Of a DNA stretch of 64,000 bases, positions 40,196 to 59,772 are shown piece after piece. Location: positions 2,604,001 to 2,668,000 of the forward strand of contig NC_007677.1 of NCBI RefSeq assembly GCF_000013045.1, read 5' to 3'. The stretch is from Salinibacter ruber DSM 13855 (GTDB lineage: Bacteria > Bacteroidota > Rhodothermia > Rhodothermales > Salinibacteraceae). Numbering within the stretch: the stretch's first letter is position 1; every line of letters begins with the position of its first letter. The notes under the pieces were generated by a model that saw only the letters and a program-made list of their open reading frames with translations, did no database searches and was not told where the DNA came from. Both the position numbers and the translations under genes were made by a program.

Positions 40196-40330
40196 GGTCC
40201 TCGCTGGTGTGGACCCGGAGAGCGAATGAACATCATTCTACTCTCGGCATGGGCCTTCGTTCAGCGAGCGTCAAACTCCCTGAACGTTCTATAAGGGATG
40301 GACCTACGTGCACTCCTGCCCGAACGCCCC

Positions 40331-41533
40331 TCAAGAGCCGGGTTCGAGTCGGTAGGCCTCCCCTTCCTTCCGCACATCCGCCCCCAGCGCGCGGGCGATC
40401 GTGTTGAGCACTTGCCCCACCGACCGATTCCGCTCAAAGGTTCCCGTCACGGGCTCCTCGGCAAGGGCCGGCGCGACGGAGATGGACACGCCATAGTGGT
40501 TGCGCAACCGCTCCGCAATGACACGCGTGGGCGCGGCCCGGAAGACGAAAAGTCCGGTCCAGTCCAGCGTCGCGGTAAGGTCCACGGGCGCAGGAGAGGT
40601 GGGGGCGTCTCCACTTCGGACCGTGCTGCGCTCGCCCGGGGCCAGCACCACCGGCTCGGCCTCATTGTTTCCGCCCGGCCCCACACGCACCCGCCCGTCC
40701 ACGAGCACAACCTCCGTGGTGTCGTTTCCGGCCGCGACCCCGAATTTCGTTCCGAGCACTTCGGTTCGGGCTGCGGGCGTGGTCACCACGAATGGCACGT
40801 CCTCCCGGGCGGTCACATCGAAATAAGCGCGGCCACGCGCCAGCGTGACGCGTCGCTCTTCGGCCGCGTCCATCCCGGGCGTGTAGGACAGCGTGGACGC
40901 CCCCACGAGCCGAACCGTCGAGCCGTCCTCAAACTCCACCTGCCGCTGCTCCCCCGCCTCCGCGGTCACGGTCGTCCGCTCCGCCCCTTGCGGCCCGTAC
41001 ACCACAGCCAGGACGGCGGCGCCGAGCAGGAGCGCCGCAACGGTGAGGCGCCACGCCCACTGGCGCCCAGCCCCCTCCCTGCGAGCACGTCCGGGGCGCC
41101 GCGGGGCGCGCTCGTTTCGGTCCGTCTGCGAGCGGCGGTCTGTCTTGTCTTCCGCGGCCCAAATCTCTTCGCGGTGCTGTGCCCACACCGTTTCGAAGTC
41201 GGCCCGTTCGTCCTGCACTCGTTTCACCACCTGCTGGAGGGCCGGAACCGCGTCGAGGGCGTCGGCAATGGCGGGGCGTGCCGCGTCGAGGGCCTCGGCC
41301 TCCTCGGGCGTCAGAAGGTCCTCCCGGCCCTCTTCGGACAGCGCATACAGGACGAGAAGGCGCCGGTCGGGGACATGCTCTTGGAGGCGCTCCCGCAGCC
41401 GGGCGCGCACCTGCTGCCAGCGCGCCCAGCCGTCGGCCAGCGCCGGGTCTTCAGCGAGTCGTGCCCGCAGCTTCGCCCGCTGCTCGGAAGAAAGGGCGTC
41501 CTCAAACAGAAGAGGACCGTACGCGTCGTCCAT
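40331..41533 (-). CDS. FecR-type transmembrane anti-sigma factor
   Basis: This 400-residue protein has a long cytoplasmic N-terminus (about 1-158), one membrane helix (WRLTVAALLLGAAVLAVVYG, about 161-180) and a periplasmic FecR domain (TAEAGEQRQVEFEDGSTVRL then VTLARGRAYFDVTAREDVPF and VLGTKFGV). A C-terminal STN-like DUF4974 domain follows (GLFVFRAAPTRVIAERLRNH). It would hold the adjacent sigma factor at the membrane and release it when the TonB receptor signals. The cytoplasmic part is much longer than in FecR of E. coli and contains a charged, Arg-rich linker. Confidence 0.9.
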   Translation of the reverse strand: MDDAYGPLLFEDALSSEQRAKLRARLAEDPALADGWARWQQVRARLRERLQEHVPDRRLLVLYALSEEGREDLLTPEEAEALDAARPAIADALDAVPALQQVVKRVQDERADFETVWAQHREEIWAAEDKTDRRSQTDRNERAPRRPGRARREGAGRQWAWRLTVAALLLGAAVLAVVYGPQGAERTTVTAEAGEQRQVEFEDGSTVRLVGASTLSYTPGMDAAEERRVTLARGRAYFDVTAREDVPFVVTTPAARTEVLGTKFGVAAGNDTTEVVLVDGRVRVGPGGNNEAEPVVLAPGERSTVRSGDAPTSPAPVDLTATLDWTGLFVFRAAPTRVIAERLRNHYGVSISVAPALAEEPVTGTFERNRSVGQVLNTIARALGADVRKEGEAYRLEPGS

Positions 41534-41671
41534 GGTCCGAGTAATCGTATCCGTCAGGAAAAGAACCGACTCCGAGGCCGGGGGCCGAGGGGGCCCTTCC
41601 CGCCCCGAACGGACCCGACCAAAGGGGTAGCCGCTCCCGACGCCGGGAAAGTAACAGTTCCGGAAATATGA

Positions 41672-42226
41672 TTACAGCCCAAAGAACCAGGCGAGAAGGA
41701 GCAGGGCCGTCAGTGCATCCTTCATGGTTTCGAAGGCACGCTTTACCTGCATCTTGACCGCCGCCTCCGTCGTGTCGAGCATCTGGGCAATCTCTCGGTA
41801 GAGGTACCCGTACTCCCGCAGCTCCATGATGCGCTGTGCCTTCGGCGTGAGGGCGTCGAGGGCCTTCTCCACGTCCACCTGGGCACTCCGGTCCTCCGGG
41901 TCCGTCGACTGTCCCAGGGGAAGGTCCGGGTCGCGCAGGTGCTCCTTCATGTCGTAGCGCCCACGGTAGTAGTCCTGCAGTTCGAACAGGGCCGCCTTCA
42001 TGGCGAACGACTTCAGGCTGCCCGGCTTCTCAAGGTCGTCGAGGCTTTCGTGGATGCGCACCAGCGTATTCTGCACCAGATCATCAACGTCGGTCTCGGC
42101 CCCGATGCGCTTGATGAAGTAGCCCCGCAGAATGGGCTCTAGGCGGCGGAGGAGCCCATTCCGGGCCTGTTCGTCCCCGTTCTGGGCGTCTCGAACACGA
42201 TCCGGATCGAACGCGGACTCAGGCAT
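41672..42226 (-). CDS. ECF-type RNA polymerase sigma factor
   Basis: This 184-residue protein has sigma region 2 (about 20-85, GAETDVDDLVQNTLVRIHES) and region 4 (about 115-170, LDALTPKAQRIMELREYGYL then YREIAQMLDTTEAAVKMQVK). It lies upstream of the fecR-like gene on the same strand, with 138 bp between. Its role should be to activate this cassette and perhaps itself. The last 14 residues (ALTALLLLAWFFGL) are strongly hydrophobic, which is unusual for an ECF sigma factor and could add a membrane or anti-sigma contact. Confidence 0.9.
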   Translation of the reverse strand: MPESAFDPDRVRDAQNGDEQARNGLLRRLEPILRGYFIKRIGAETDVDDLVQNTLVRIHESLDDLEKPGSLKSFAMKAALFELQDYYRGRYDMKEHLRDPDLPLGQSTDPEDRSAQVDVEKALDALTPKAQRIMELREYGYLYREIAQMLDTTEAAVKMQVKRAFETMKDALTALLLLAWFFGL

Positions 42227-42525
42227 AACCGACGGACAACACGGCAGACGGGCAGGAATGACGGCCAGGCATGCTCCGTTCTCCGCCCGAGACGGGTCCG
42301 GACACGTCCCGGCGAACCGATGGGCTTTCGCGTCGTATAGGCAATGGTTCTATCGGGGTCACGGGCATCTTCGTTCTGAAGTACATGCCTCGACGTTTGT
42401 GCAATGCTGCTCGCCCGGCCGTGTCCTCCGTTTCGCTCTCACCTGGAGGCCGCTCGCGCCCGGGCAGTACACGCCCACATCGCCCGCCTCGCACACGCTG
42501 TCCCATCTAAATTCTCTGCACGACC

Positions 42526-42810
42526 ATGAGCCTGTACGACCTGCACGACGCAACGCTTAACGACATGGAAGGGGAGGGGTTCGCCTACTCGGAAAAGACC
42601 GTTTACGGCAAGGCCTACAAGGGCGTCTTCTTCGGGGAGGACGAAGAGCAAATCGAGGACCTCGCCGACGAGGAGGACGATGCCAACTTCGAAGGCATCC
42701 TCTACGACCGAAGCCGCGAGCGCGAGAAGAGCTTTTCGGTTGAGATTACGGATGTGGTGAGCACCCCGTCCGGCGAGCGGGCCGACTTCGTGGCCACGGA
42801 GAAGCCGTAG
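42526..42810 (+). CDS. Small acidic hypothetical protein
   Basis: This 94-residue protein starts MSLYDLHDATLNDMEGEGFA and is strongly acidic in its middle (EDEEQIEDLADEEDD). It probably forms a small beta-rich domain with conserved-looking aromatic residues (YSEKTVYGKAYKGVFF, FEGILYDRS). It has no signal peptide. The nearby sigma gene is divergent and the gene ends at a terminator, so it is likely monocistronic. I do not recognise a family. Confidence 0.7.
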   Translation: MSLYDLHDATLNDMEGEGFAYSEKTVYGKAYKGVFFGEDEEQIEDLADEEDDANFEGILYDRSREREKSFSVEITDVVSTPSGERADFVATEKP

Positions 42811-42848
42811 TCCCCCGCCGCCTTCAACCGCCGTGCTCTGTGTTCAGC

Positions 42849-42888
42849 GAGGAGGTCGCGCCCGTTCGCCGGGTCGACCTCCTTTTTT
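42849..42888 (+). terminator. Terminator after the small acidic protein gene
   Basis: GGAGGTCG and CGACCTCC form a stem with a 16-base loop, followed by TTTTTT. It separates this gene from the convergent rlpA. Confidence 0.88.
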
Positions 42889-42942
42889 ATCGGTGTCGGG
42901 GCGTCATTTTGCCCGTTGGGCGCCGTTCCCGCCGGCCCAGCG

Positions 42943-43443
42943 CTACCACCCGGCGCTTGACGATTCCGGCCCCGACGGCTCCTCCCCTGACGGCCCGGCG
43001 GTCGTGGAGGCGGGACCTGACGGGTACGAGACGATCTCCAGCCGCACCTCCGCGAGCCCGTCGCGAAGCATGTTGAGGCGCCCGGCGGCCGCCTTCGAAA
43101 GGTCGATGATGCGCCCGTCTTTGAACGGCCCCCGGTCGTTGATGCGCACGACCACGGACGGCTGCGCAGGCGCGTCAATGCGGGTGGTGCGGACCCGCGT
43201 CCCGAACGGCAGGCTGCGGTGGGCGGCCGTAAGCCCTTGGTGGTCGTAAATCTCTCCGTTGGCCGTCGTTCGGCCCACGAACTTATCTGCGTAGTAGCTG
43301 GCAATTCCCTGCGCGTCGGGAAGCCCCTGCTCCCCCACGTGCTGCGTTGAGCCACACCCTGCCAGCACCCCGCACAGCAGAAGCAAGGCCCAGCGGGGCC
43401 CAGCCCATGCGTCCCTCACGGCCGGATGCGATCGAATCCCCAT
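42943..43443 (-). CDS. rlpA: RlpA-like septal ring lipoprotein
   Basis: From the ATG at 43443 the protein is 166 residues with a lipobox LAGC (Cys30) and one double-psi beta-barrel domain (about 45-130): [39 protein letters not shown] and [18 protein letters not shown]. RlpA lytic transglycosylases cut denuded glycan strands at division sites; the RASGEx and ND-RGP motifs of the active domain are recognisable here as RTTANGE and NDRGP. No SPOR domain is present. An IS1-family element is inserted 31 bp upstream of the start and may have displaced its promoter. Confidence 0.87.
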
Positions 43444-43466
43444 AGGCTGTGCGCAGGGCGGAATTT

Positions 43467-43474
43467 TGAAGGGC
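43467..43474. repeat. Target-site duplication, left copy (TGAAGGGC)
   Basis: This 8-bp sequence is repeated exactly at 44283-44290, immediately outside the right inverted repeat of the IS1-family element. Confidence 0.92.
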
Positions 43475-43548
43475 GGTAGCGGCTCAACACGTAGTGGAGC
43501 TCTCTGTTTTAATGATGTCGCTCTTGGCTCACCAGTCCATCCAGTCCG

Positions 43549-43827
43549 ATGATCAAAGAGACCCATGAGTGTAGGGAGTGCGGCTCCTCGAACATTATCA
43601 AAAACGGCCACAGCGCGAGCGGCTCTCAGCAATACCACTGCAAGGATTGTGGGGCCCATAAGGTGCTCGATCCGGAGCCGCGGGGCTATTCCGAGGAGGA
43701 GAAAGAGAAGATTCTCCGGGCTTACCGTGAACGCGGGTCAAAACGAGCAATCAGTCGCATTTTTGGGATCAGTCGCAATACTCTGAACCGGTGGCTTGAA
43801 AAAAGGGACACGAAGCCGACTCAGTAG
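43549..43827 (+). CDS. IS1-family transposase, OrfA (InsA-like)
   Basis: This 92-residue protein has an N-terminal zinc-ribbon ([13 protein letters not shown] ... [10 protein letters not shown], four Cys as two CxxC pairs) and a helix-turn-helix ([20 protein letters not shown]), as in InsA of IS1. Near its end an A6 run followed by GGG (43799-43807) lies where IS1 uses a -1 frameshift to make the InsAB' transposase. Alone it should bind the ends and act as a repressor. Confidence 0.9.
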
Positions 43828-44267
43828 CTGAGGGCCTCCGGCCAGCCAGGGACAACGACACCCTTGAACTCGACGAATGCTGGACATACGTCCGAAAACG
43901 GTCGAACAAACGGTGGCTCTGGGTCGCTCTATGCCGTCGAACTCGACAGGTCGTAGCATTTGTGATCGGAGACCGCTCGGCAAAAACCTGCGCACGGCTC
44001 TGGAGCCGGATTCCGGAGGGCTACCGGAAAGGCCGAAGTTTCAGCGACTTCTGGAAGTCCTATCGCCCAGTTTTTGAAGACGATTCCAGCCATCGGCAGG
44101 TCGGAAAGTCCAGTGGCGAGTTGGCACATGTGGAACGGTTTTTTGGGCGACTGCGGCAAAAGCTGGCACGGTACGTCCGTCGGACGCGAGCGGCCTCCCA
44201 GTCAGAACGAATGCTCCATCTGACGACAAAACTGTTCGTGGAGTGGTACAACGAAGCCATCACTTAA
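43800..44267 (+). CDS. IS1-family transposase, OrfB part (InsB-like, made by -1 frameshift)
   Basis: The -1 frame opens directly after a TGA at 43797-43799, so a slip must occur between there and the orfA stop at 43825-43827; the A6-GGG run is the only obvious site. The 155-codon frame has the IS1 DDE pattern: LDECWTYV, then FSDFWKSY, then HVERFFGRLRQKLARYVRR. These correspond to DEQWGYVG, TDGWPLYE and IERHNLNLRQHLAR of IS1 InsB. All three acidic residues are present, so the fused product (about 240 residues) should be active. Confidence 0.85.
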   Translation, partial: KKGHEADSVAEGLRPARDNDTLELDECWTYVRKRSNKRWLWVALCRRTRQVVAFVIGDRSAKTCARLWSRIPEGYRKGRSFSDFWKSYRPVFEDDSSHRQVGKSSGELAHVERFFGRLRQKLARYVRRTRAASQSERMLHLTTKLFVEWYNEAIT

Positions 44268-44282
44268 CATCGACCCGCTACC

Positions 44283-44290
44283 TGAAGGGC
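44283..44290. repeat. Target-site duplication, right copy (TGAAGGGC)
   Basis: Exact copy of the sequence at 43467-43474, flanking the right end of the IS1-family element. Confidence 0.92.
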
Positions 44291-44543
44291 GATTGCTGTT
44301 CGTCGAAAAGCAGTGCCGGATCCAAGGTTCCCCACCCCGCCCGGTCTCTCCCCGGCCCAGGACGCCCTGAGCTCGACACAGCGGATGCCCGGCGCCCGCA
44401 CCGTCGGTGCCGCGCCCTCGTTCGTTGAAACGTTCGCGTACTAATCCGAAATGCCTTCCCATACCCCGTGTGAGACGGAACCGAGTCCGGCGCCGTATTT
44501 TCAAAAATTTCCGCTTGTTGGCCTGGTTTAATCGCTCTCCCAC

Positions 44544-47048
44544 ATGCTCGGTACGATCGGTGAGCTTCTTCTTCTAAGCGCCTTTGTGGCGTGTGGCGTG
44601 TCGGCCGTCGCCTTCTTCTGGGCCGCCCGGACCGACGAGGACATGCGCACGGCAAGCACCTGGAAGCAGGCGGGCCGCTGGGCCTGGGGCACCATGAGCA
44701 CGGCCGTGGGCGCCGCGTCCGGGGTGCTCTGGTACATGATTCTGAGCCACCAGTACCAGTACGCCTACGTCTACCAGCAATCGTCGAACGACCTGCCGGG
44801 GCACTACCTCTTTTCCACGTTTTGGGCCGGGCAGGAAGGCTCGTTCCTCTTCTGGGCCCTCATGATGTGCGTCGTGGGGGGGCTCCTCATTGCCTACGTC
44901 CAGCGGGAGTACGAGACGCCGGTGATGGCCGTCGTGGGCCTCTGCCAGCTCTTCCTGCTGTCGATGATTGTGGGGCTGCAGTTCGGCCCCGTTGAGATCG
45001 GCTCCTCCCCGTTCATGACGCTGCCGGAGAAGTTTGCCGACGCGCCCATCTTTCAGCAAAACCCCGGCTTCGTGCCGGCGGACGGGCAGGGGCTCAACGA
45101 CCTGCTCCAGAACCCCTGGATGACGATCCACCCGCCGATCCTCTTCCTCGGCTTCTCGGCGATGGTCGTGCCGTTTGCCTTTGCCCTGGCGGCGCTGTGG
45201 AAGAAGCGCTACACGCAGTGGGTGCGCCCGGCCCTGCCGTGGACGCTCTTCGCCGTCATGGCGCTGGGCGTGGCCATCGCGATGGGCGGATACTGGGCGT
45301 ACGTCACGCTCTCCTTCGGCGGGTACTGGGCGTGGGACCCGGTGGAAAATTCGTCCCTCGTCCCCTGGCTGCTGGGCGTGGCCGCCTTCCACACGATGCT
45401 GGTGCAGAAGAAGAGTGGGTCGAGCCAAAAGGCCTCGCTCCTTCTCTCCATCGCGGCGTACCTGTTCGTCATTTACTCCACGTTCCTCACGCGAAGCGGG
45501 ATTTTGGGGGACGTGTCGGTGCACTCGTTCGTGAGCCTCGGCCTCTACAACCAGCTGCTGCTCTGGATCGCCACCCTCGGCGTCCTGGGCATCGGGCTGT
45601 TCACGTACCGGTACGGCGAGCTGCCCGTGCCCGACGAGGAGCCGCGCACCCTCTCCCGCGAGTTCATGATCCTGTGCGGCTCGGTCCTGCTCACGGCCAC
45701 GGCCGCCGTCATCATTCTCGGCACCAGCGCGCCCATCTTCGGCCAGATCTTCCGGGACAACCCGTCGGCCGTGCCGCAGTCGTTTTACAACCAGTGGACC
45801 CTCCCCCTGGCGCTCGGCTTCGTGTTTCTCGCCGGGCTCGGCCAGCTCTTCTGGTGGAAGAAGATGGACGTGGCGACGGTGAACCGGGTTCTGCTGAAGC
45901 CGCTCGCCCTGGCCACCGCGAGCACCATCGCCGTGCTCATTCTGACGCCGTTTGCGGAGCAGGCGCTCGTCATCCCGGCGGGAACCGGAGCCGCCCCCCA
46001 GACGGCCTCGGCCAGCCTCACGGGAAGCCTCGCCGACTTCTGGGCAGCGTACGGACAGGCCCTGCAGATGCTGCTCCTGCTCTTCGTGGGCTTCTTTTCG
46101 CTCTTCGGCAACGGGGCCGTGCTCTGGCGCATTCTTCGGGGCAACCCCCGGATGGCCGGCGGGGCGCTCTCGCACGTTGGCTTCGCCCTCATCATCCTCG
46201 GCATCATCGCGTCCAACGGCTTTGACCAGGCCCTCCCCCGCATCGGCGAGCCCACGGCGGCGGACGAGGACAAGATGCCGCGCGAGAACTTTGTGGTGGC
46301 CAAGGGCCAGACGCGCGTCGTGAACGGGTACCGGGTCACCTACGAAGGCAAGACGACGACCGACCGGGGCCGCGGCCAGTACATCTTGGACGTGCGCGAC
46401 CCGCAGGGCCGCACCCATACGTTCACCCCTGTGGCCTATCAGGGCAGCAACGACCAGTGGTTCAAGCACCCGGACGTGAAGGCCTTCCTGGAGAAGGACC
46501 TCTTCGTCGCCGCCACGCCGAAGGAGGCAACGGGCGTCGCACAGGACGACGGGCCGCCCGGGGGCGAGTTTCAGCTCGCAGACGGCGACTCGACCACCCT
46601 TGGGGACCGCGAGTACGCGGTCGCCTTCCACGGATTCGAGGTCCTAAAGGGCCCGGAGGGGGCGATGGAGACGACGGCGACCGACGCCCGCGTGCCGGAC
46701 GACGCGCAGATGGCCGTGGGGGCTCGCCTTCGGGTCACCAACCTCGATACCCGAGAGACCCGGTCGCTCATGCCCATCTACCTTGTGATGAACGACAACT
46801 CGCAGCAGTACATCGAGAACCGAATCGCGGACTGGGACCTCCGAATGAGCTTTACCGAGATGGACGCGAACAACGGCGAGGCGACCTTCGCCGTGGAGGG
46901 CGTCGACGTGATGCCCGAGAACTGGGTGGTGGTGCAGGCCTACACGAAGCCCCTCATCAGCGTCCTCTGGGGCGGCATTATCATTCTCACGATTGGCTTC
47001 GTCGTCTCCATCGGGCGCCGTGTGCAGGACATCCGGTTCCGGCGATGA
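44544..47048 (+). CDS. ccmF: Cytochrome c biogenesis protein CcmF
   Basis: CcmF attaches haem to apocytochrome c in system I maturation. The 834-residue protein has about 14-15 membrane helices and the WWD haem-handling motif in the form FGGYWAWDPVENSSLVPWLL. Flanking histidines are in HPPILFLGF and FHTMLVQKK, and a large periplasmic domain sits near the C-terminus (about 580-800). It is longer than E. coli CcmF (about 650) because of this domain. The start at 44544 gives MLGTIGELLLLSAFV. The window also encodes a client, pentahaem ActA. The IS1-family element sits 261 bp upstream. Confidence 0.94.
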   Translation: MLGTIGELLLLSAFVACGVSAVAFFWAARTDEDMRTASTWKQAGRWAWGTMSTAVGAASGVLWYMILSHQYQYAYVYQQSSNDLPGHYLFSTFWAGQEGSFLFWALMMCVVGGLLIAYVQREYETPVMAVVGLCQLFLLSMIVGLQFGPVEIGSSPFMTLPEKFADAPIFQQNPGFVPADGQGLNDLLQNPWMTIHPPILFLGFSAMVVPFAFALAALWKKRYTQWVRPALPWTLFAVMALGVAIAMGGYWAYVTLSFGGYWAWDPVENSSLVPWLLGVAAFHTMLVQKKSGSSQKASLLLSIAAYLFVIYSTFLTRSGILGDVSVHSFVSLGLYNQLLLWIATLGVLGIGLFTYRYGELPVPDEEPRTLSREFMILCGSVLLTATAAVIILGTSAPIFGQIFRDNPSAVPQSFYNQWTLPLALGFVFLAGLGQLFWWKKMDVATVNRVLLKPLALATASTIAVLILTPFAEQALVIPAGTGAAPQTASASLTGSLADFWAAYGQALQMLLLLFVGFFSLFGNGAVLWRILRGNPRMAGGALSHVGFALIILGIIASNGFDQALPRIGEPTAADEDKMPRENFVVAKGQTRVVNGYRVTYEGKTTTDRGRGQYILDVRDPQGRTHTFTPVAYQGSNDQWFKHPDVKAFLEKDLFVAATPKEATGVAQDDGPPGGEFQLADGDSTTLGDREYAVAFHGFEVLKGPEGAMETTATDARVPDDAQMAVGARLRVTNLDTRETRSLMPIYLVMNDNSQQYIENRIADWDLRMSFTEMDANNGEATFAVEGVDVMPENWVVVQAYTKPLISVLWGGIIILTIGFVVSIGRRVQDIRFRR

Positions 47049-47116
47049 CCGGCTCCTGTCTGAGACCCGTAGGCATGACGCACCGCTGGAGGCCGTCTAT
47101 ATCGATTTCGCAGTGT

Positions 47117-47243
47117 CGTGAGTCATGCGTCATGAGTCACGTATCACGAGTACGCCTCCGTCGCATGGTCGGCAGTTCGGAAAATATATAGCGGACCAAC
47201 TCATGACTCATCAACTCATGACTCGTCACCCATGACTCAATGG
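47117..47243. repeat. Period-7 inverted-repeat element (copy B)
   Basis: The left arm (47117-47154) reads CGTGAGT, CATGCGT, CATGAGT, CACGTAT, CACGAGT. The right arm (47198-47243) on the other strand gives repeated GAGTCAT/GAGTTGA-type heptads. Each arm has seven-base periodicity and the two are complementary over GAGTCATG-type units, with a loop of about 43 bases containing an A+T-rich AAAATATATAG. The right arm ends over the start codon of the SRPBCC gene. Confidence 0.72.
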
Positions 47244-47674
47244 TAACCGTTCGCGAGCACATCGACCTCTCCCCGCCGGTGGACCGGGTGTTTGACTTCA
47301 TGGATGCCCCCGCCCACCAGGCCTGGATCACCCCAAGTCTGTCGGACTCCACGCTCCTCGAGCGACTGCCAAACGGCGGCTCTCGGGCCCACTACGTCTA
47401 CCGGATCCTCGGATTGTCGTTTTCCGGCGAGGTCCGCGCGACCGACTACGTGCCGAACGAGCGCATCGTCTGGAGCATGACGGGCGACCTTCAAGGCACC
47501 CTTCGATGGTACTTTGAGCCCATCGACGGCGGGTGCCACTTCACCTACGCAGCGACGTATCAGGTTCCGGGGCCGACCCTGCTGCACCCACTGGCCCGGC
47601 CGCTCATCCGGCGCTACAACGAACGCGAAGTTCAGTCCCTTCTGCACAATCTGGAGGCGCAGGTCACGTCGTAA
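47240..47674 (+). CDS. SRPBCC / polyketide-cyclase-like protein
   Basis: This 144-residue protein shows the START-like helix-grip pattern: VREHIDLSPPVDRVFDFMDA at the N-terminus, SGEVRATDYVPNERIVWSMT, GTLRWYFEPIDGGCHFTYAA and a long C-terminal helix (LIRRYNEREVQSLLHNLEAQ). Such proteins bind small hydrophobic ligands. The substrate is unknown. Its start codon lies within the right arm of a period-7 repeat, so its translation signal may derive from that element. Confidence 0.82.
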   Translation: MVTVREHIDLSPPVDRVFDFMDAPAHQAWITPSLSDSTLLERLPNGGSRAHYVYRILGLSFSGEVRATDYVPNERIVWSMTGDLQGTLRWYFEPIDGGCHFTYAATYQVPGPTLLHPLARPLIRRYNEREVQSLLHNLEAQVTS

Positions 47675-48074
47675 CCCCCAGGTACTGCCTCTTCTCCTGG
47701 GCACCTGTGCTCAAGCCCCCTCCGGTACTCCCCCAGTGTGAATACGCAATGAACTTAAATTTTTCTTGCACCTCGGGCAAACAAATTTCTGAGTCCCATT
47801 GGAGAAAAGAATAAATACGTTTGCCCTACAGTCCGTTTTGTTCGATTTTCTTCGTATCGGAAGCGCTTCGTATCAGAGGATCTTCCGTCTCGAACATACC
47901 GCCCCGCTTCTCTTCTATCCTTGACACCGCATTCCATGTCCCCCTAATTGGGGTTCACCCTCAACGGACGACCCATCCGCAATGATGACGTCTTCCCCAT
48001 ACTCCGTCCTCTTGGGATCCGGTCTGGGCCCTTCCTCTGTTCAGGGAGACCGGGCCCCCGTGGGTCGTTCGATC
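47675..48074. promoter_or_regulatory. A+T-rich upstream region of the ilv cluster with dyad and repeated motif
   Basis: No gene is seen here. GGGCAAAC (47775-47782) and GTTTGCCC (47819-47826) form an exact inverted repeat 36 bases apart, and CTTCGTATC occurs twice (47850-47858 and 47866-47874) with a 16-base step. The region is clearly richer in A+T than its surroundings and precedes the leader peptide. It likely contains the ilv promoter and operator; the binding factor is unknown. Confidence 0.5.
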
Positions 48075-48167
48075 ATGCACGAAGGGATTGCCGTGACGGG
48101 ACGCGTGCCGACCGTGCTTCGGCGTTCGGTGCGTGTCCTTCTTCTTATTGCGATTCTTGCGGACTAA
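48075..48167 (+). CDS. Putative ilv leader peptide, 30 residues
   Basis: The short frame from the ATG at 48075 ends VRVLLLIAILAD; 13 of its 30 residues are Val, Leu or Ile, and 8 of the last 12. It lies 270 bp upstream of ilvB on the same strand and its stop is 10 bases before the first of two competing RNA stems. This is the design of branched-chain amino acid leader peptides such as those of the E. coli ilv operons, where ribosome stalling senses amino acid supply. It is not a recognisable protein otherwise. Confidence 0.72.
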   Translation: MHEGIAVTGRVPTVLRRSVRVLLLIAILAD

Positions 48168-48177
48168 CAACCGACCG

Positions 48178-48237
48178 CCAATCCCTTCCCAGCGATGACA
48201 TCAGGTATCGTGCGGCGCCGAGGGGATTGGCCCCTCG
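48178..48237 (+). promoter_or_regulatory. Candidate ilv attenuator: mutually exclusive stems
   Basis: CCAATCCC (48178-48185) is exactly complementary to GGGATTGG (48223-48230). The latter overlaps a second exact stem, CGAGGGG (48219-48225) with CCCCTCG (48231-48237). Only one can form. A ribosome at the leader stop (48165) would cover the first segment and favour the second hairpin; a ribosome stalled on the Leu/Ile codons would leave it free to pair. The weak point is the absence of a T-run after the second hairpin, so the mechanism of termination is open. Confidence 0.6.
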
Positions 48238-48437
48238 CCCCCCACTCCCCGATGCCTGTGCCCTTGTCCAGCGTCATCGCATTCAGCTTGTGCGCCTCCG
48301 TCGGGCCCGCCGTGTACCCGTCTAGCGTCTCGGCGGCCTACACGGCATCGGGGCGTTTGGCAGGGGGGACAAGGGATTCGCGCGCGCCGTCCCTCCCCGC
48401 GACGTGTCCTCAAGACTAGGCCGACCCAGACCGACCG

Positions 48438-50228
48438 ATGCCGACCGACACCATGCCGTCTTCCGATGCAGCCGCTCCCCCCTCAAACGGCGCGTCGGAC
48501 GCGCCCATTCTGAAAGGCTCCGAAATTTTCGTCCGTGCCCTTGAGGAAGAAGGCGTGGACCGCGTCTTCGGCCATCCGGGCGGGGCCGTCATCAAGATCT
48601 ACGACGCGATGGAGCGCATCCAGCCGTCGTACGACCACGTCCTCGTCCGGCACGAGCAGGGCGGCACCCACGCCGCCGAGGGCTACGCCAAGGCCACCGG
48701 GCGGGTGGGCACCATGCTCGCCACGAGCGGACCCGGGGCCACCAACACCGTAACGGGCATCGCGGACGCGTACCTCGACTCGGTCCCCATCGTCGTGTTC
48801 ACCGGCCAGGTGCCCACCCACCTGATCGGCAACGACAGCTTTCAGGAGACCGACACGACCGGCGTCACCCGCAGCATCACGAAGCACAACTTCCTGGTGC
48901 GGGACGTGAACGAGCTGGCCTCGACCATCAGGCAGGCCTACCACATCGCCCGCACGGGCCGTCCGGGCCCCGTCGTCGTGGACCTTCCGAAGGACGTGCA
49001 GATGGACGAGGCGCCGTTCGCCTACCCGGAGGAGCCGGGGCTGGACGGGTACTCCGTCCCCGGCGCCGCGGCACCGACGCAGGTGGACCGGGCGGCGGCG
49101 ATGATTGAGGAGGCCGAAAAGCCGCTCCTGTACGTGGGGGGCGGGACGATCAACGCCGACGCCCCCGAGGTCCTGACCGCGTTCGCCCGCGCGGCCAACC
49201 TCCCAGTCACCACCACCCTGCATGGCCTGGGCGCCTTCCCCGAGACGGACGACCTCGCGCTCGGCTGGCTCGGCATGCACGGCTTCTACCACACGAACAT
49301 GGCCGTGCAGAACGCCGACCTCATCATGGCCGTCGGCGCCCGATTCGACGACCGCGTCACCGGCGACGTGGAAGAATGGGCCCCCAACGCGAAGATCATC
49401 CACGTCGACATCGACCCGTCGTGCATCTCGAAGAACGTGTACGCCGACTGCGCGCTCATCGGCGACGCGCAGACGGTCTTGCAGCAGCTCCGGCCCAAGG
49501 TGGAGCCGAAAGACACGTCGGACTGGCTCGCGCAGATCGACGAATGGCGGGGCGAGTGCCCACCCTACGAGTACGAGTCCCCCGAGGAGGACGGGATCGC
49601 GCCGGAGTCCGTCGTGGGGGCCCTGTACGAGAAGACGCAGGGCGACGCGGTGATGGTGACGGACGTGGGACAGCATCAGATGTGGGTCTGCCAGTACTAC
49701 AAGTTCGGCCGAACCCGCTCCCACATCAGCTCCGGCGGCCTCGGCACCATGGGCTTCGGCCTGCCCGCCGCGATGGGCGCGGCCTTCGGCATGCGCGAGG
49801 GGCGCAACCTGGACATCGTCTGCGTGAGCGGCGACGGCGGCTTCGTGATGAACGCGCAGGAGCTGAGCGTGGCGGCCCGGCACGGCCTGCCCCTCAAGAT
49901 CGCTGTGATCAACAACAACTACCTCGGCATGGTGCGGCAGTGGCAGTCCCTCTTCCACGAGGACCGCTTCAGCCACACGGACCTCAAACCCACGAACCCC
50001 GACTTCGTGAGGCTCGCGGAGGCGCACCACTGCGTTGGCCTGCGCGCACGTTCGCCCGACGAGGTGAGCGACGTAATCGACGAGGCCTGGACGGTCGACG
50101 ATCGGCCCGTCGTGATGGAATTCCAGGTGCCAAAAGAGGAGATGGTTTTCCCCATGGTGCCCGCCGGCGCCGCCAGCGACGACATGCTCACGGAGATGTT
50201 CGACAAGGAGGCGATGGCGGAGAGCTAA
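48438..50228 (+). CDS. ilvB: Acetolactate synthase large (catalytic) subunit
   Basis: This ThDP/FAD enzyme condenses two pyruvates, or pyruvate and 2-oxobutyrate, at the start of valine, leucine and isoleucine synthesis. The 596-residue protein has LEEEGVDRVFGHPGGAVIK, the catalytic Glu in LVRHEQGGTHAAEGYAKATG, FQETDTTGVTRSITKHN, the FAD-binding middle domain, and the ThDP motif GDGGFVMNAQELSVAARHGL ending in NNNYLGMVRQWQ. It begins the ilvBN-ilvC cluster, and the ilvN start is 95 bp downstream. Confidence 0.96.
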   Translation: MPTDTMPSSDAAAPPSNGASDAPILKGSEIFVRALEEEGVDRVFGHPGGAVIKIYDAMERIQPSYDHVLVRHEQGGTHAAEGYAKATGRVGTMLATSGPGATNTVTGIADAYLDSVPIVVFTGQVPTHLIGNDSFQETDTTGVTRSITKHNFLVRDVNELASTIRQAYHIARTGRPGPVVVDLPKDVQMDEAPFAYPEEPGLDGYSVPGAAAPTQVDRAAAMIEEAEKPLLYVGGGTINADAPEVLTAFARAANLPVTTTLHGLGAFPETDDLALGWLGMHGFYHTNMAVQNADLIMAVGARFDDRVTGDVEEWAPNAKIIHVDIDPSCISKNVYADCALIGDAQTVLQQLRPKVEPKDTSDWLAQIDEWRGECPPYEYESPEEDGIAPESVVGALYEKTQGDAVMVTDVGQHQMWVCQYYKFGRTRSHISSGGLGTMGFGLPAAMGAAFGMREGRNLDIVCVSGDGGFVMNAQELSVAARHGLPLKIAVINNNYLGMVRQWQSLFHEDRFSHTDLKPTNPDFVRLAEAHHCVGLRARSPDEVSDVIDEAWTVDDRPVVMEFQVPKEEMVFPMVPAGAASDDMLTEMFDKEAMAES

Positions 50229-50272
50229 CGCGTATTTCGTAGGACAGCCGATTGCGACACGCAACACGCACT
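50229..50272. repeat. Degenerate period-7 repeat between ilvB and ilvN (copy F)
   Basis: CGCGTATTTCGTAGG follows the ilvB stop directly and CACGCAACACGCAC lies 20 bases on. These are heptads of the same CGTnnnn type in opposite orientation, but only about two units per arm are left. I list it as a probable decayed copy. Confidence 0.4.
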
Positions 50273-50323
50273 CCGGAATACTCCGCACGCAGAACAGCTT
50301 CTACTCCACACCCCAGCAGCCTC

Positions 50324-50974
50324 ATGTCCAACGAAGAACCCCTGACCCGACAACAAATCCGCCGAAAGCAAAAGTTTGGCGAGCCCCTCCTGCCGGAAGA
50401 GGAGGACGAGACCGAACAGGAGCACCGGCACATCATCGCCGTCACGCTCGAAAATACGATCGGGGCGCTCAACCGCGTGACAAATCTCTTTTCGGCCCGG
50501 GGCTTCAACCTGGAGAGCGTCGCCGTGGGCGAGACCGACGAGCCCTCCGTCGCCCGCCTCACGCTCGTTACGGTGGGCAACGACCGCATCGTGGCCCAGA
50601 TTACGCGCCAGCTCGATAACCTCGTCAACACCTACGACGTCACCGATCTGACCGACGCGGAGCACGTGGAGCGCGAGCTTTGCCTGCTCAAGGTCCAGTA
50701 CACGACCGAGACCCGGTCGGAAGTGCTCGACATCAAGGACATCTTCCGGGGGCGGGTCGTCAACGTCACGCCGGAAACCATGATTTTGGAGGTCACCGGC
50801 CCCACGAAGAAGATCAACGCCTTAGTCGGCATGATGGAGGAGCACGGGATTGAAGAGGTCGCGCGCAGCGGACAGGTGGCGATGCACCGCGCCCTGGAGT
50901 ACGAGGCGCCCAATCCCCTTGCCTCCGCCGACGCCGAGCCGTCCGCCAACGGTGCCTCTTCGGACAACGACTAG
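50324..50974 (+). CDS. ilvN: Acetolactate synthase small (regulatory) subunit
   Basis: The ATG at 50324 ([14 protein letters not shown]) gives 216 residues. The ACT domain is clear ([20 protein letters not shown] ... [20 protein letters not shown]), followed by the second domain (REVLD-type [20 protein letters not shown] ... [18 protein letters not shown]). The small subunit raises activity and confers valine feedback inhibition. It has an extended charged N-terminus (about 40 residues) and an acidic Ser/Ala-rich tail compared with typical IlvH. The ilvC gene follows after 83 bp. Confidence 0.94.
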
Positions 50975-51057
50975 CTCCCCTCGCGGCGCCCCCCGTCGGT
51001 GAGCGCCGCCCCACACATCCATTTTCTTCCTTTTCTCCCAATCCATCCCCTTCCGAC

Positions 51058-52104
51058 ATGGACGTCCACTACGACGCGGATCCCGCTCTCATCCACGACA
51101 AGCAGGTCGCCGTCATCGGCTACGGCAGCCAGGGCCACGCCCACGCCTTGAATCTACACGACAGCGGGGTGGACGTGGCCGTTGGCCTGCGCCCCGGCTC
51201 CTCCTCTCGTCCGAAGGCCGAACAGCAGGGCCTCACGGTGATGGATATCGGCGAGGCGGCCGCGTGGGGCGACGTGGTGATGCTCCTCATCCCCGATCAG
51301 CACCAGAAGGACGTCTACGAGGCGAAGATTGCGGAGCACATGACGCCCGGCACGGCCCTCGGCTTCGGCCACGGCTTCAACATTCACTACGACCGCATCG
51401 AGCCGCCCGAGGCGGTCGATGTTTTCATGGTCGCGCCCAAATCGCCCGGCCACCTTGTCCGCCGTACCTACACGGACGGCAGCGGCGTGCCGTGCCTCGC
51501 GGCGGTCGACCAGGATCCCTCCGGCGGCGCAATGGCCCTTGCCATCAGCTACGCCGACGCGATTGGTGGCACCCACGCGGGCGTCATCGAGACAACCTTC
51601 AAGGACGAGACCGAGACCGACCTGTTCGGCGAGCAGGCCGTGCTCTGCGGCGGCTCGCAGGCGCTCATTCAGGCGGGCTTCGAAACGCTCGTCGACGCGG
51701 GCTACCCCGAAGAACTGGCCTACTTTGAGTGCCTCCACGAGCTGAAGCTGATCGTGGACCTCTACTACGAAGGTGGCCTCGAGTACATGAACCATTCGGT
51801 AAGTGATACCGCCGAGTATGGCGGCTACACGCGCGGCCCTCGGGTCATTGACGACGCTGTGCGGGAGCAAATGCAGGAGATCCTCGAGGAGGTGCAGTCC
51901 GGCGAATTTGCCGACGAGTGGATTGAGGAATACGAACAGGGGGCCCCGCAGCTCCAGGAGGAACGCGCGGCACTGACAGAGCACCCGATCGAGCAGGTTG
52001 GCCAGACACTCCGCGGCATGATGCCCTGGCTGAACGGCGATGAGACGTCGGCGGACGAAGATGCCCCCGACGCGGCGGACACGGCCCCTGCCTCGTCGAG
52101 TTGA
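51058..52104 (+). CDS. ilvC: Ketol-acid reductoisomerase
   Basis: This converts acetolactate or acetohydroxybutyrate to the dihydroxy acid with NADPH and Mg2+. The 348-residue class-I enzyme has the Rossmann motif [20 protein letters not shown], an Arg/Ser-bearing cofactor loop ([12 protein letters not shown]) typical of NADPH use, [25 protein letters not shown], and the metal-site Glu/Asp of [19 protein letters not shown] and [17 protein letters not shown]. It follows ilvN in the same direction and precedes leuB. Confidence 0.96.
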
Positions 52105-52180
52105 GGGGTTGAGCGGGCGCGAAAAGGCCCCGTCGACCGCGCGTCTTCAACGCAATTCACCCGGACGCACACAGTTTAGC

Positions 52181-53278
52181 ATGGACGATACACGATCGTA
52201 CGACATTGCCTGGCTTCCCGGCGACGGCATCGGCCCGGAGGTAACGCGGGAGGCGCTCCGCGTGCTGGAGGCGGTGGGCTCGGCCCACGGATTTTCCGTG
52301 ACGGCCACGGAGCACCGGATGGGAGGCGTCGCACTCGACGAGACGGGAATGCCGCTCCCTGACTCCACCCGCGACGCATGCCTGGAGAGTGACGCCGTCC
52401 TGCTCGGCGCGGTCGGCGGGCCGAAGTGGGCCGACAACACCGGCGACCAGCGTCCCGAAAGCGGTCTTCTTGCCCTCCGGAAGGCGCTCGGCGTCTACGC
52501 CAATCTGCGCCCGGTCCGCGTGCCGGCGGCACTGGCCGACGCTTCTCCCCTCCGTCCCGATCGCGTCGGCGGTACGGACATTCTGTTCGTCCGCGAGCTG
52601 ACCGGCGGCATCTACTTCGGCACACCCGAGGGCCGCACCGACGACGGCGCCCGGAGCACGATGGCGTACTCGGACGATGAGATCGAGCGCATCGCCCACG
52701 TCGCCTTCCAGCGTGCCCGGCGGCGCGACGGAAACGTGACGTCCGTCGACAAGGCGAACGTGCTGGAGGTGTCGGAGCTGTGGCGCGAGGTCGTGACCGA
52801 GGTCCACGACGACTGCCCCGACGTGACGCTTCGTCACCTGTACGTCGACAACGCCGCGATGCAGGTGGTCCGCGACCCGCGGCAGTTCGACGTGGTGCTC
52901 ACCGGCAACCTCTTCGGCGACATTCTCTCGGACCTCGCGGCGGCCCTCCCCGGCTCGCTGGGGCTTCTGCCCTCCGCCAGCGTCGGGGGCACGGTGGGCC
53001 TCTTCGAACCGGTGCACGGCAGTGCGCCCGACATTGCCGGGCAGGACGTTGCGAACCCCACCGCGGCCATTCTGAGCGCCGCCCTTCTGCTCGACGAAGT
53101 CGGCGAAACAGCGGCCGCCGACGCGGTCCGGCACGGCGTCGACGCGGCCCTGGACGCCGGCTTCCGCACCGCTGACCTCGCGGCGGACAACGAGGAGGAC
53201 GCATCGACCTCTGCGTTTGGCCGCGAGGTCGCCACCCGCGCCGCCGACTCCGTTCCCCAAAACGCCCCAACACCGTGA
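52181..53278 (+). CDS. leuB: 3-Isopropylmalate dehydrogenase
   Basis: This oxidises and decarboxylates 3-isopropylmalate in leucine synthesis, and erythro-3-methylmalate in the citramalate route. The ATG at 52181 gives 365 residues. Motifs are [70 protein letters not shown] and the NAD site [20 protein letters not shown]. The longer upstream frame overlaps the ilvC end and is not used. leuA follows after 175 bp. Confidence 0.95.
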
Positions 53279-53453
53279 CCTTCGCGTTGCCACTTGCTGA
53301 TCCGCCGCCGGCTCCGAATACCCTTAGGATTCGCGGGCGGATCACCCTGCGCCTTATCGAGCGTCCGGACGCGACGACCGATGCGGCGTCCGGGCGCCCT
53401 TCTGACTCCCAAACTGCCTTCCGACGCCCCACATTCAACACACGACCCAACCG

Positions 53454-55094
<1,641 letters not shown>

Positions 55095-55168
55095 GTATTG
55101 CGTAGTGCGTATTGGACTCTCCGTTCGTGCTAGTCCCTACGAAATATGCAATACGAAATACGCACTAC
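55095..55168. repeat. Period-7 inverted-repeat element (copy C), between leuA and leuC
   Basis: The left arm (55095-55115) contains GTATTG, CGTAGTG, CGTATTG. The right arm (55137-55168), read on the other strand, is GTAGTG, CGTATTT, CGTATTG, CATATTT, CGTAG. A small inner hairpin GGACT/AGTCC closes the loop. It begins at the base after the leuA stop. The heptads match those of copy A near 9201. Confidence 0.8.
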
Positions 55169-55226
55169 CGGTCCTGAGCACGCCGTCTCTTGAGACTTTC
55201 CTCCTTGAAATACGCCGACTTCGTCA

Positions 55227-56645
55227 ATGTCCACCGGCACCCTCTACGACAAGGTCTGGAACCGCCATGCCGTCCGCGAGCTGCCCACCGGCGAGACCCA
55301 GCTGTTCGTGGGCCTGCACCTGATCCACGAGGTGACGAGCCCGCAGGCGTTCGGCATGCTCGAGGAGCGCGACCTGTCGGTGGCATTCCCCGCCCGCACC
55401 TTCGCCACCACCGACCACATCATCCCCACCGCCGACCTGGAGCGCCCCTTCGGCGACGACCAGGCCGAGACGATGCTGCAGGTGCTGGAGAGAAACACCG
55501 AGGCGTACGACATCACGTTCTTCGACCCCAGCTCCGGCGCGCAGGGCATTGTGCACGTCGTGGGGCCGGAGCAGGGGCTCACCCAGCCCGGAATGACCAT
55601 CGTCTGCGGCGACTCGCACACGAGCACGCACGGGGCCTTCGGCACCCTTGGGTTTGGCATCGGCACGAGCCAGATCCGCGACGTGCTGGCGACCCAGTGC
55701 ATCGCGATGGAGAAGCAGGACGTGCGGCGGATTCAGGTGGACGGCGCGCTCGGCGAGGGGGTCTACGCGAAGGACATTATTCTCAAAATTATTGGCGAGC
55801 TGGGCGTGGAGGGCGGCATCGGGTACGTCTACGAGTACGGCGGCCCCGCCATCAAAGGGCTCAGCATGGAGGGCCGGATGTCCATCTGCAACATGAGCGT
55901 GGAGGGCGGGGCCCGGGCCGGCTACGTCAACCCCGACCTCACGACCTTCGAGTACATGAAGGGCCGGCCGCACGCCCCGAGCGGGGCGGCCTGGGAGCGG
56001 GCCGTCGACTGCTGGCAGCAGATTCAGTCCGACCCGGACGCCACCTACGACGACACCGTGACGTTCGACGGCTCGGCCATCGAGCCGATGGTGACGTGGG
56101 GCATCACGCCGGGCCAGGCCCTCGGCATCTCGGAGCCGATTCCGGACCCGGCCCGGATGGACTCCGGCGACCGGGCCACGGCCGAAAAGGCCCTCGACCA
56201 CATGGACCTGCGGCCCGGCCGGACGATGGAGGGGGTCAACGTGGACGTCGCGTTCCTCGGCTCCTGCACCAACGCCCGCATCACCGACCTCCGCGAGGCC
56301 GCCTCGCTGCTGGAGCGACTGGGCCGCCCCGTGGCCGACGACGTGCGGGCGATGGTCGTCCCCGGCTCGCAGGGCGTGAAGCAGCAGGCGGAGGACGAGG
56401 GCCTGGCCGACACCTTCCGCGAGGCCGGATTCGACTGGCGCGGCGCCGGGTGCTCGATGTGCCTCGGCATGAACCAGGACCAGCTGGAGGGCCGCGAGCT
56501 GTGCGCCTCCTCCTCCAACCGCAACTTCATCGGCCGCCAGGGGAGCAAGGACGGGCGGACGGTGCTGATGAGCCCGGCGATGGTGGTGGCGGCGGCGGTG
56601 GAGGGGGAGGTGACGGACGTTCGCCGATTGATGCGTGAAACGTGA
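55227..56645 (+). CDS. leuC: 3-Isopropylmalate dehydratase large subunit
   Basis: This aconitase-family subunit carries the 4Fe-4S cluster for isomerising 2- to 3-isopropylmalate. The 472-residue protein has [37 protein letters not shown] and the cluster cysteines in [13 protein letters not shown] and [11 protein letters not shown], followed by [14 protein letters not shown]. The C-terminus reads [10 protein letters not shown] and then MRET; relatives usually end near VRRL. The last codons lie inside the left arm of a period-7 element (56630-56652), which appears to have supplied a new stop. Confidence 0.95.
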
Positions 56646-57184
56646 TGCGTGACTATTTCGAGGCGAAGGGAATTTCTTCGAAAAGATCTGTCTCACTGTA
56701 CTCAGAAGCACGATACTTCGAGTCAGGCTCGCGGATTTCGCCTCCGCGCTGGTCGGACACCATTACGAGCAAAAGCCGAATGATCTGCGTCATAAAATCG
56801 AGACGATGCGCAACCACGTCTTCACCGATGACGAACCGACTTTTGTAGTACCAGTCTCGGCTTTCCCGTGCGGAGCCGAGGGCATACTCGTAGAACCGGG
56901 CGCGGTCTTTCCCCGTCCCGCGCGAGTACCCTTCCGCAATGTTCGAACTGATTGAGCCAACCGCACGATAGAGTTGATCTGCGAGCGACCGTGTGTGCGC
57001 GTTCTCATGGAGTTTGCGGATGTCCTGCCAGCACACGTCGGACGCAAACAGGCTCAGTCGATACGCCTCAACGTCCCACAGGGTATCTTCTCGAATTGAC
57101 GACGGAACCTGATCCTGCCAGCCGGAAAAGTTCATCGGTCAGAACAAAACAGCCTCACGAATCACGCCTCACGCATCACGCCCC
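56630..57184. mobile_element. Period-7 inverted-repeat element containing a four-helix-bundle gene (copy D)
   Basis: The left arm (56630-56652) is GATGCGT, GAAACGT, GATGCGT, GA. The right arm (57153-57184), on the other strand, is GGGGCGT, GATGCGT, GAGGCGT, GATTCGT, GAGG. The two arms match at 20 of 23 positions. Between them is only the four-helix-bundle gene, on the minus strand, whose stop abuts the left arm. The left arm overlaps the last codons of leuC. Inverted repeats around a four-helix-bundle ORF are also the plan of intervening sequences in some 23S rRNA genes, but this copy lies between protein genes. Mobility is inference. Confidence 0.65.
56653..57135 (-). CDS. Four-helix-bundle protein (23S rRNA intervening-sequence / S23-like family)
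   Basis: This 160-residue protein contains the family motif SLADQLYRAVGSISSNIAEG, then GTGKDRARFYEYALGSARES and a last helix LDFMTQIIRLLLVMV. It is antisense to the leuC-leuD genes that flank it and lies exactly between the arms of a period-7 inverted repeat. Relatives occur as ORFs in intervening sequences of 23S rRNA genes and resemble Avd, the accessory protein of diversity-generating retroelements. They form pentameric helical bundles that bind nucleic acid. Here there is no reverse transcriptase nearby. The function of free-standing members is unknown. Confidence 0.88.
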   Translation of the reverse strand: MNFSGWQDQVPSSIREDTLWDVEAYRLSLFASDVCWQDIRKLHENAHTRSLADQLYRAVGSISSNIAEGYSRGTGKDRARFYEYALGSARESRDWYYKSRFVIGEDVVAHRLDFMTQIIRLLLVMVSDQRGGEIREPDSKYRASEYSETDLFEEIPFASK

Positions 57185-57189
57185 TCAAT

Positions 57190-57807
57190 ATGCCCACCGC
57201 AACGGACAACACCGTAACCACCGTCACCGGCCCCGCCGTCTCCGTCCGCGGCAACGACATCGACACCGACCAGATTGTCCCCGCCCGCTTCCTCAAGGAG
57301 GTCACGTTCGACAACATGGGCGAGTACGCCTTCTACGACGTGCGACGGGACGACGACGGCAGCCTGAACGACCATCCCTTCAACCGCTACCCGAACGCCA
57401 CCATCCTGGTGGTGAACGAGAACTTTGGCTGTGGCTCCTCGCGGGAGCACGCCCCCCAGGCCCTCATGCGCTGGGGCATCGACGGCCTCATCGGCGAGTC
57501 CTTCGCCGAGATCTTTGCCGGCAACTGCCAGGCCCTCGGCCTGCCCACCGCCACCGCGGACCACGAGACTGTGGAGTGGATCATGGCGCAGGTGACGGCC
57601 GACCCGGCGCTCGAACTCACCATCGACGTGGAGGCGGAGACGGTCACCGTCAGCGACGAGCCCGTCGACGTGACCATCAGCGATGCGCAGCGCGAGGCGC
57701 TCCTGCAGGGCGTCTGGGACACCACCGCCCTCATGAAGAGCTACATGGACGAGGTGGAGCAGACCGCGGATCGGCTGCCCTACCTGAACGAGTTTGCCGA
57801 TTGCTGA
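57190..57807 (+). CDS. leuD: 3-Isopropylmalate dehydratase small subunit
   Basis: This 205-residue subunit completes the LeuCD isomerase. It has GNDIDTDQIVPARFLK near the N-terminus, ILVVNENFGCGSSREHAPQA (substrate-specificity loop region) and GESFAEIFAGNCQALGLP. It lies 544 bp after leuC, separated by the four-helix-bundle element, which is unusual because leuC and leuD normally adjoin. Its start is 5 bp after the right arm of that element. The stop is followed by another period-7 repeat. Confidence 0.95.
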   Translation: MPTATDNTVTTVTGPAVSVRGNDIDTDQIVPARFLKEVTFDNMGEYAFYDVRRDDDGSLNDHPFNRYPNATILVVNENFGCGSSREHAPQALMRWGIDGLIGESFAEIFAGNCQALGLPTATADHETVEWIMAQVTADPALELTIDVEAETVTVSDEPVDVTISDAQREALLQGVWDTTALMKSYMDEVEQTADRLPYLNEFADC

Positions 57808-57873
57808 GTGATCAGTGAAGCGTGATGCGTGAGGCTGCCGTCTTTCACGCTTCACGTTTCACGCATCACGAAA
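57808..57873. repeat. Period-7 inverted-repeat element (copy E), between leuD and ilvD
   Basis: The left arm (57808-57835) reads GTGATCA, GTGAAG, CGTGATG, CGTGAGG. The right arm (57843-57873) on the other strand reads CGTGATG, CGTGAAA, CGTGAAG, CGTGAAA. The loop is only about 7 bases. The right arm matches the left arm of copy D (56630-56652) at 22 of 23 positions, linking this non-coding copy to the one with the four-helix-bundle gene. Confidence 0.82.
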
Positions 57874-57912
57874 ACAGCACCTTCTTTCCCTTCCACTTTT
57901 CCCTTTTGCCCA

Positions 57913-59667: not shown

Positions 59668-59680
59668 GACGGATCTGCGC

Positions 59681-59755
59681 GAATGGGTGAAAGGGTGAGT
59701 GGGCGCAACTGTGAAGTGGCCCCATTCCCCCACTCCCCCATTCCCAATCGCCCAC
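59681..59755. repeat. Period-7-like inverted repeat (copy G), between ilvD and cimA
   Basis: The left arm (59681-59705) contains GAATGGG, TGAAAGG, GTGAGTG, GGCG. The right arm (59720-59755) on the other strand contains GGGCGATT, GGGAATG, GGGGAGT, GGGGGAATGGGG. Spacing is mainly seven with some eights. The unit differs from the CGTnnnn type, as in copy H upstream of mutY, but the architecture is the same. Confidence 0.65.
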
Positions 59756-59772
59756 ACGCACACACCCAGACG

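Follow-up and report, generated by a model that had tools for sequence, protein, structure and literature searches.

A probable leader-peptide attenuator of translation initiation ahead of the ilv operon in Salinibacter ruber

The ilv operon and its leader frame

The window analyzed here is a 64,000-nt stretch of the Salinibacter ruber DSM 13855 genome (NC_007677.1; positions are those of the window, on the + strand unless noted), a species placed by NCBI in the phylum Rhodothermota. It carries a branched-chain amino acid operon in the order ilvB-ilvN-ilvC-leuB-leuA-leuC-leuD-ilvD. The first gene, ilvB (48438–50228), encodes the acetolactate synthase large subunit (TIGR00118, E=4.8e-226), and the downstream genes were named via NCBIfam. 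A small ORF on the opposite strand (56653–57135, −) separates leuC from leuD; its sequence resembles four-helix-bundle S23-type proteins. The spacers flanking it have similar translated strings (HASRFTHH-like), which suggests an inserted repeat element. The putative attenuator described below lies upstream of ilvB, and a model search of the whole S. ruber genome found it once.

We compared the DNA 5′ of ilvB in relatives within the order and then the DNA 5′ of ilvD in ilvD-first operons, yielding an aligned set of 56 loci from 21 genera in which the element precedes ilvB or ilvD. A first-pass annotation of the window had proposed a 30-codon leader that starts at 48075 and ends in VRVLLLIAILAD, with its stop at 48165–48167. 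The end of the frame and its stop are indeed found there, and the start was revised: relatives do not share the ATG at 48075, and the frame extends back to one at 47982 whose position is kept across Salinibacter. Because this ATG is conserved, the frame is open from there and a promoter-like sequence lies upstream, the leader probably starts near 47982 and spans about 60 codons rather than 30 (47982–48167, 61 codons, MMTSSPYSVLLGSGLGPSSVQGDRAPVGRSIMHEGIAVTGRVPTVLRRSVRVLLLIAILAD up to the stop).

The probable promoter (47921–47950), identified solely by its match to the consensus, consists of TTGACA (47921–47926), an 18-nt spacer and TAATTG (47945–47950). Similar TTGACA-N18-TAATTR-like sequences are found 254–276 nt 5′ of strand C (see below) in most Salinibacter and in six out of seven loci of the Rhodothermus-like family (f11). 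The transcript is predicted to start at ∼47957, upstream of the entire element and not beyond 48237, which places the ATG at 47982 ∼25 nt 3′ of the expected start.

The leader ends in a run of branched-chain codons (48135–48158; GTC CTT CTT CTT ATT GCG ATT CTT, encoding V L L L I A I L). The frame is open with an end rich in isoleucine, leucine and valine (I/L/V) in 55 out of 56 loci, where the last 16 codons include six to 14 I/L/V codons (mean of 10.6 across all 56 loci in the 21 genera). CTT and ATT dominate the leaders. Within the group formed by Salinibacter and one related genus (f1), ATT accounts for 19/20 isoleucine codons and CTT for 42/53 leucine codons; in the genes of the window, ATT makes up about a quarter of the codons for isoleucine, and CTT roughly one in ten of those for leucine. 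CTT and ATT are thus in the minority in the window's genes and are favored in the leaders against that usage. The distance from the leader stop to strand C, a CAAUCCC-like sequence, is also nearly constant, at 5–10 nt in 55 out of 56 loci. At one locus upstream of ilvB (L018, genome G007), an apparent insertion of ∼100 nt separates the I/L/V codons from the leader stop. The insert is bordered by TACCGAT/ATCGGTA and retains the frame to the same TAA; it may be a mobile insertion that shifted or broke the attenuator.

Competing pairings around the leader stop

Four segments within and downstream of the leader can pair in alternative ways. Strand C (GCCAATCCCTTC, 48177–48188), 9 nt past the leader stop, has two potential partners. 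One is segment A (GAAGGGATTG, 48081–48090), located in the leader 5′ of the control codons, which forms a perfect 10-bp match with 48179–48188. The other is strand B (GAGGGGATTGGC, 48220–48231), which could pair either with C (denoted the open state) or with D (the closed state). Strand D (CCCCTCG, 48231–48237) closes the hairpin CGAGGGG-ATTGG-CCCCTCG, which is not followed by a U-tract. Two of these alternatives had been pointed out in the first-pass annotation, namely the pairing of CCAATCCC, which begins 10 nt after the leader stop (48178), with GGGATTGG (48223–48230), and the hairpin CGAGGGG/CCCCTCG (48219–48225/48231–48237). Both are present as described; the A:C pairing and the E:E′ pairing discussed below were absent from it.

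The C:B pairing is supported by covariation. Among 35 divergent sequences, 96% of the cells in this helix were paired and six out of 10 pairs had changed on both sides. Two-sided changes occurred in 23 cells, versus 3.5 ± 2.1 in shuffled controls (0/500 shuffles), and no slid register came close. In family f2, C and B have been largely altered together (CCGUCCACC/GGUGGACGG). The B:D complementarity was supported across the 21 genera (Fisher p=5.8e-4) through variants such as CGAGGGG/CCCCTCG, CCGGGG/CCCCGG, GTGAAGG/CCTTCAC and CTGG/CCAG, among others. The A:C complementarity was present in most of the 21 genera (Fisher p=2.7e-8; swap test p=5e-5), with segment A mostly 20–37 codons ahead of the leader stop, 5′ of the control codons.

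Since A:C, C:B and B:D have strands in common, they are mutually exclusive, and they are positioned for a choice made by the leader ribosome. The alignment of relatives, which had been proposed as a check for conservation and covariation, shows the leader frame and the stems to be conserved; together with the leaders kept in 55 out of 56 loci, the C:B covariation and the support for B:D, this places the original observation beyond chance. Sequence comparison thus shows an I/L/V-rich leader frame, the placement of its stop and the A:C, C:B and B:D complementarity. Minimum free energy folding of the whole leader was uninformative (z=-1.4), as expected of a switch. We dropped an inverted repeat at 48261–48269/48367–48375 from consideration, its second arm being lost in one relative (L010).

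Start-site pairing and the predicted output

The loop between C and B holds a further segment, E (48192–48210), composed of GCGATGAC (48192–48199) and CAGGTATCG (48202–48210), which are complementary to 48250–48258 and 48273–48280. The partner, E′ (48250–48280), comprises CGATGCCTG (48250–48258), which includes the AUG (48252–48254) of a short frame denoted ORF2, and GTCATCGC (48273–48280). Salinibacter E′ reads CGAUGCCUG plus GUCAUCGC, and the E:E′ helix lies on the ORF2 AUG in every Salinibacter locus examined. Most Rhodothermales genera have E:E′ complementarity over a start codon or Shine–Dalgarno (SD) sequence; the AUG covered in Salinibacter is that of ORF2, not that of ilvB. In the Rhodothermus-like family, E pairs with the SD of ilvB (ACUUCACAGG/CCUGUGAGGU), and in family f8 with the ilvB AUG (GCAUAGU/ACUAUGC, with GCAUAGC/GCUAUGU in a relative). 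In families f4, f2 and f13, E pairs with the start of ilvD; examples among them are GGAAUC+CAUCG/GAUUCC+CGAUG and, adjoining the AUG, GAAG-GC-UAUC/GAUA-GC-CUUC, replaced by AAACG/CGUUU in L145. Relative to the start codon, the helix spans −2 to +6 typically in f1, −3 to +3 in f8, −2 to +4 in f4 and −1 to +10 in f15. The pairs differ in sequence between genera through compensatory changes, making compensatory-mutation tests direct.

A comparison of the best E helix with those of shuffled loops under loose scoring did not discriminate, because the downstream stretch is short and shuffled loops cover the start codon too. We therefore used stricter scoring and loop swapping. Cognate loops scored higher on their own start site than loops from other genera (mean of 17.4 vs. 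14.1; p=5e-5 in three resamplings over 20 genera). RNAduplex energies gave mixed per-locus p-values, and the pairing is weak in several loci (L136, L138, L140 and L141).

Two side observations concern these segments. A GCACYUC sequence, or one close to it, lies immediately 3′ of strand C in f8, f11, f15, L021 and L120; it resembles an anti-Shine–Dalgarno, with the ilvB SD as its partner in f11 and no obvious SD partner in f8 and f15. In S. ruber, 48244–48256 can also pair with 48344–48356 (ACTCCCCGATGCC/GGCATCGGGGCGT), a second possible partner of the ORF2 start region ∼90 nt downstream, and GGCATYGG-like sequences are also found in L010, L011, L013 and L086. This pairing might compete with E or serve as an extra lock.

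We modeled the folding of the start site with C available or masked. In 20/20 genera, the start site was predicted to be costlier to open once C was masked, by a mean of 3.6 kcal/mol (Wilcoxon p=1.9e-6). The predicted open/closed difference of 3.4 kcal/mol dropped to 0.7 with shuffled E and to 0.8 with shuffled C, and the closed-state opening cost dropped from 10.2 to 5.3 kcal/mol once E was shuffled. For S. ruber itself the modeled equilibrium shift is small (0.6 kcal/mol) because E:E′ is very stable there; the switch would therefore have to be kinetic, with C:B formed before E′ is made.

ORF2 (48252–48419, 55 codons) is a candidate relay frame that ends 18 nt ahead of ilvB. Its end lies at most 20 nt from the ilvB start in nine out of 11 Salinibacter. 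The frame has only seven codons in L018, and in L012 its stop comes 57 nt early. In family f15, the corresponding frame ends at or near ilvB in 6/6 loci (in L054 via its second ATG), with the stop mostly overlapping the ilvB start by 8 nt. The chance of a frame of this type ending at ilvB is ∼0.03–0.26 per locus. The ORF2 alignments had no excess of synonymous changes and the protein sequence is not conserved, which, like the frames in L018 and L012, weighs against the reading proposed below. If ORF2 functions at all, it would be as a relay, through coupling or by shielding the RNA from Rho.

Taken together, the comparisons and the folding model make it likely that the branched-chain operon is under a ribosome-mediated, leader-peptide attenuator that acts on translation; stalling, coupling via ORF2 and the direction in which control acts are the parts that we infer. 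When isoleucine, leucine and valine are plentiful, the ribosome would pass the V/L/I codons, reach the stop and cover C, and after its release C would pair with A. Strand B, left free, would form the short B:D hairpin, and E would pair with E′, masking the start codon or ribosome-binding site. When branched-chain aminoacyl-tRNA is short, a ribosome stalled on the control codons would leave C exposed, trailing ribosomes may cover A, and C would capture B, such that E:E′ does not form and translation begins. Most relatives would mask the start of the gene itself, ilvD or ilvB. In Salinibacter the masked start would be the AUG of ORF2, which ends beside ilvB, so that ilvB would be switched through translational coupling.

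The first-pass annotation had favored ribosome-mediated attenuation of the classical type, with the second hairpin as a transcription terminator. The I/L/V leader, the exclusive hairpins with their covariation and the promoter 5′ of the leader all support ribosome-mediated control; the terminator is not supported. None of the 56 aligned loci has a U-tract 3′ of D, the hairpin abuts the next start codon in many relatives, and a scan of 47600–48600 found no terminator-like site. Classical transcription attenuation, with B:D as an intrinsic terminator and C:B as the antiterminator, is consequently an unlikely reading, although its leader and C:B/B:D logic match known ilv attenuators. It could be sustained by a terminator lacking U's: in S. 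ruber, a hairpin with a U-tract was found at only three of the 80 convergent gene ends examined (within L207–L226 plus the window, 464 kb of the genome, judged by our own criteria), hinting at Rho-dependent or U-less termination. Because U-tract terminators are so rare in that genome, their absence from Salinibacter alone is weak evidence, and the case for a translational output is built on the relatives and on the pairing over start codons. Just 13–28 nt lie between strand B and the gene's start in ilvD-first operons, and transcription attenuation leaves the complementarity of E to start sites unexplained. It is this pairing of E with E′ over the start codon that argues for control of translation initiation and not of termination. 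Both this complementarity, in most Rhodothermales genera, and the absence of a U-tract are seen by sequence comparison.

We give about as little weight to a readout by Rho, in which E:E′ masks the ORF2 or ilvB start and the untranslated leader is then terminated. E. coli tna is an established example of a leader peptide read out in this way. In Salinibacter, ilvB lies ∼190 nt downstream of E′, a distance that would be unprotected were ORF2 silent, and the extent of ORF2 is conserved without its protein; in the ilvD-first relatives, however, E′ is followed by the gene with scarcely any untranslated RNA in between. A ligand- or protein-binding fold (a riboswitch or repressor site), to which the I/L/V leader would be secondary, is very improbable: the fold is conserved and has loop motifs such as GCACYUC in several families, but it matches no Rfam model, the leader with its control codons is kept in 55 out of 56 loci, and the C–B loops, ∼12 to 45 nt long, diverge while the pairing is retained, and no unpaired core is conserved across families.

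Relation to known systems and range

Leader-peptide attenuation of ilv operons is a well-known class. The transcription attenuators of E. coli ilvGMEDA, Corynebacterium ilvB-II (PMC10272879) and M. tuberculosis ilvB1 (PMC13236596) likewise have a short I/L/V-rich ORF 5′ of ilv genes and exclusive hairpins selected by ribosome position. Those attenuators stop transcription at an intrinsic terminator bearing a U-tract, whereas here no U-tract is present and the alternative structure lies over the start codon; segment A, moreover, here sits 5′ of the control codons. Translational attenuation, known from erm leaders and reported for M. smegmatis cysteine genes (as cited in PMC13236596), involves a stalled leader ribosome that frees a sequestered initiation site, as proposed here. 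Those systems concern other genes and other amino acids, the likeness lying in the proposed mechanism, and they differ from the present element in its three linked pairings (A:C, C:B, and B:D with E:E′) and in its candidate relay ORF in Salinibacter and f15. The LEU element of actinobacterial leuA (PMC1262725) also combines a leucine-rich leader ORF, a pseudoknot-capable RNA and a base stem on the SD box. In that element it is the leucine codons that pair with the SD, whereas here the loop segment E pairs with the start; the authors of that work considered classical attenuation by a leader peptide unlikely (PMC1262725). Within the same broad bacterial group, amino-acid operons of Flavobacterium psychrophilum have been proposed to be under leader-peptide attenuation of transcription (PMC9723704); the literature searched gave no RNA family of this kind, no pairing with a start codon and no case from Rhodothermota.

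A search of 40000–60000 against Rfam release 15 gave no covariance-model match up to E=1, and we found no paper on a Salinibacter leader in the literature. Vitreschak and colleagues are said to have mentioned, in 2004, cases of leader-peptide attenuation in Bacteroidetes/Chlorobi. Bacteroid-trp RNA (RF01692) is a candidate cis-regulatory RNA of Bacteroidetes linked to trp by name, and was not matched in this region. Judged from sequence, what would be new here is an RNA family undescribed within the literature searched, its unusual output and an apparent relay ORF in Salinibacter. As the transcriptional version fails at the terminator and the translational version agrees with the sequence tests, we regard the element as a new variation on ilv leader-peptide attenuation. 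It provides a well-supported leader-peptide attenuator in Rhodothermota, with a core shared 5′ of ilvD in other classes of a wider phylum for which such control is little described, and suggests that branched-chain attenuator logic has been joined to translation initiation instead of transcription termination. A translational output would suit genomes poor in U-tract terminators, and the Rhodothermus-like elements (hidden SD) and those of Salinibacter (hidden relay AUG) offer contrasting cases.

We hold it to be an even call whether the element represents an undescribed, deeply conserved RNA family of Rhodothermales and other classes in which a branched-chain leader peptide hides the start codon of ilvD or ilvB, with a relay ORF in Salinibacter and one other family where the gene starts 140–200 nt downstream. 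A search with a model trained on the diverse set gave further Rhodothermales matches, 5′ of ilvB in family f3, where three loci (L045, L051 and L028) have fewer I/L/V codons, and 5′ of ilvD in L186. Other matches were rejected as apparently inside genes or lacking an I/L/V leader: G515, G528, G532, G092 (C106/C115), G036 (C97), G048 (C3), G350 and G291. In family f12 (L128, L129 and L130), an apparent leuA lies directly 5′ of ilvD and the leader element is absent there, so any control element would lie farther upstream.

Outside the class, three more families of the GTDB phylum have the element, with an I/L/V leader, 5′ of ilvD (L193, L194, L195, L201, L202, L204 and L205). Among AT-rich relatives outside the order, the usual position of E′ is 20–60 nt 5′ of the start and some loci have T-runs, so that the output there may be either translational or transcriptional. 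In the relatives outside the class, segment A lies inside or adjoining the run of control codons.
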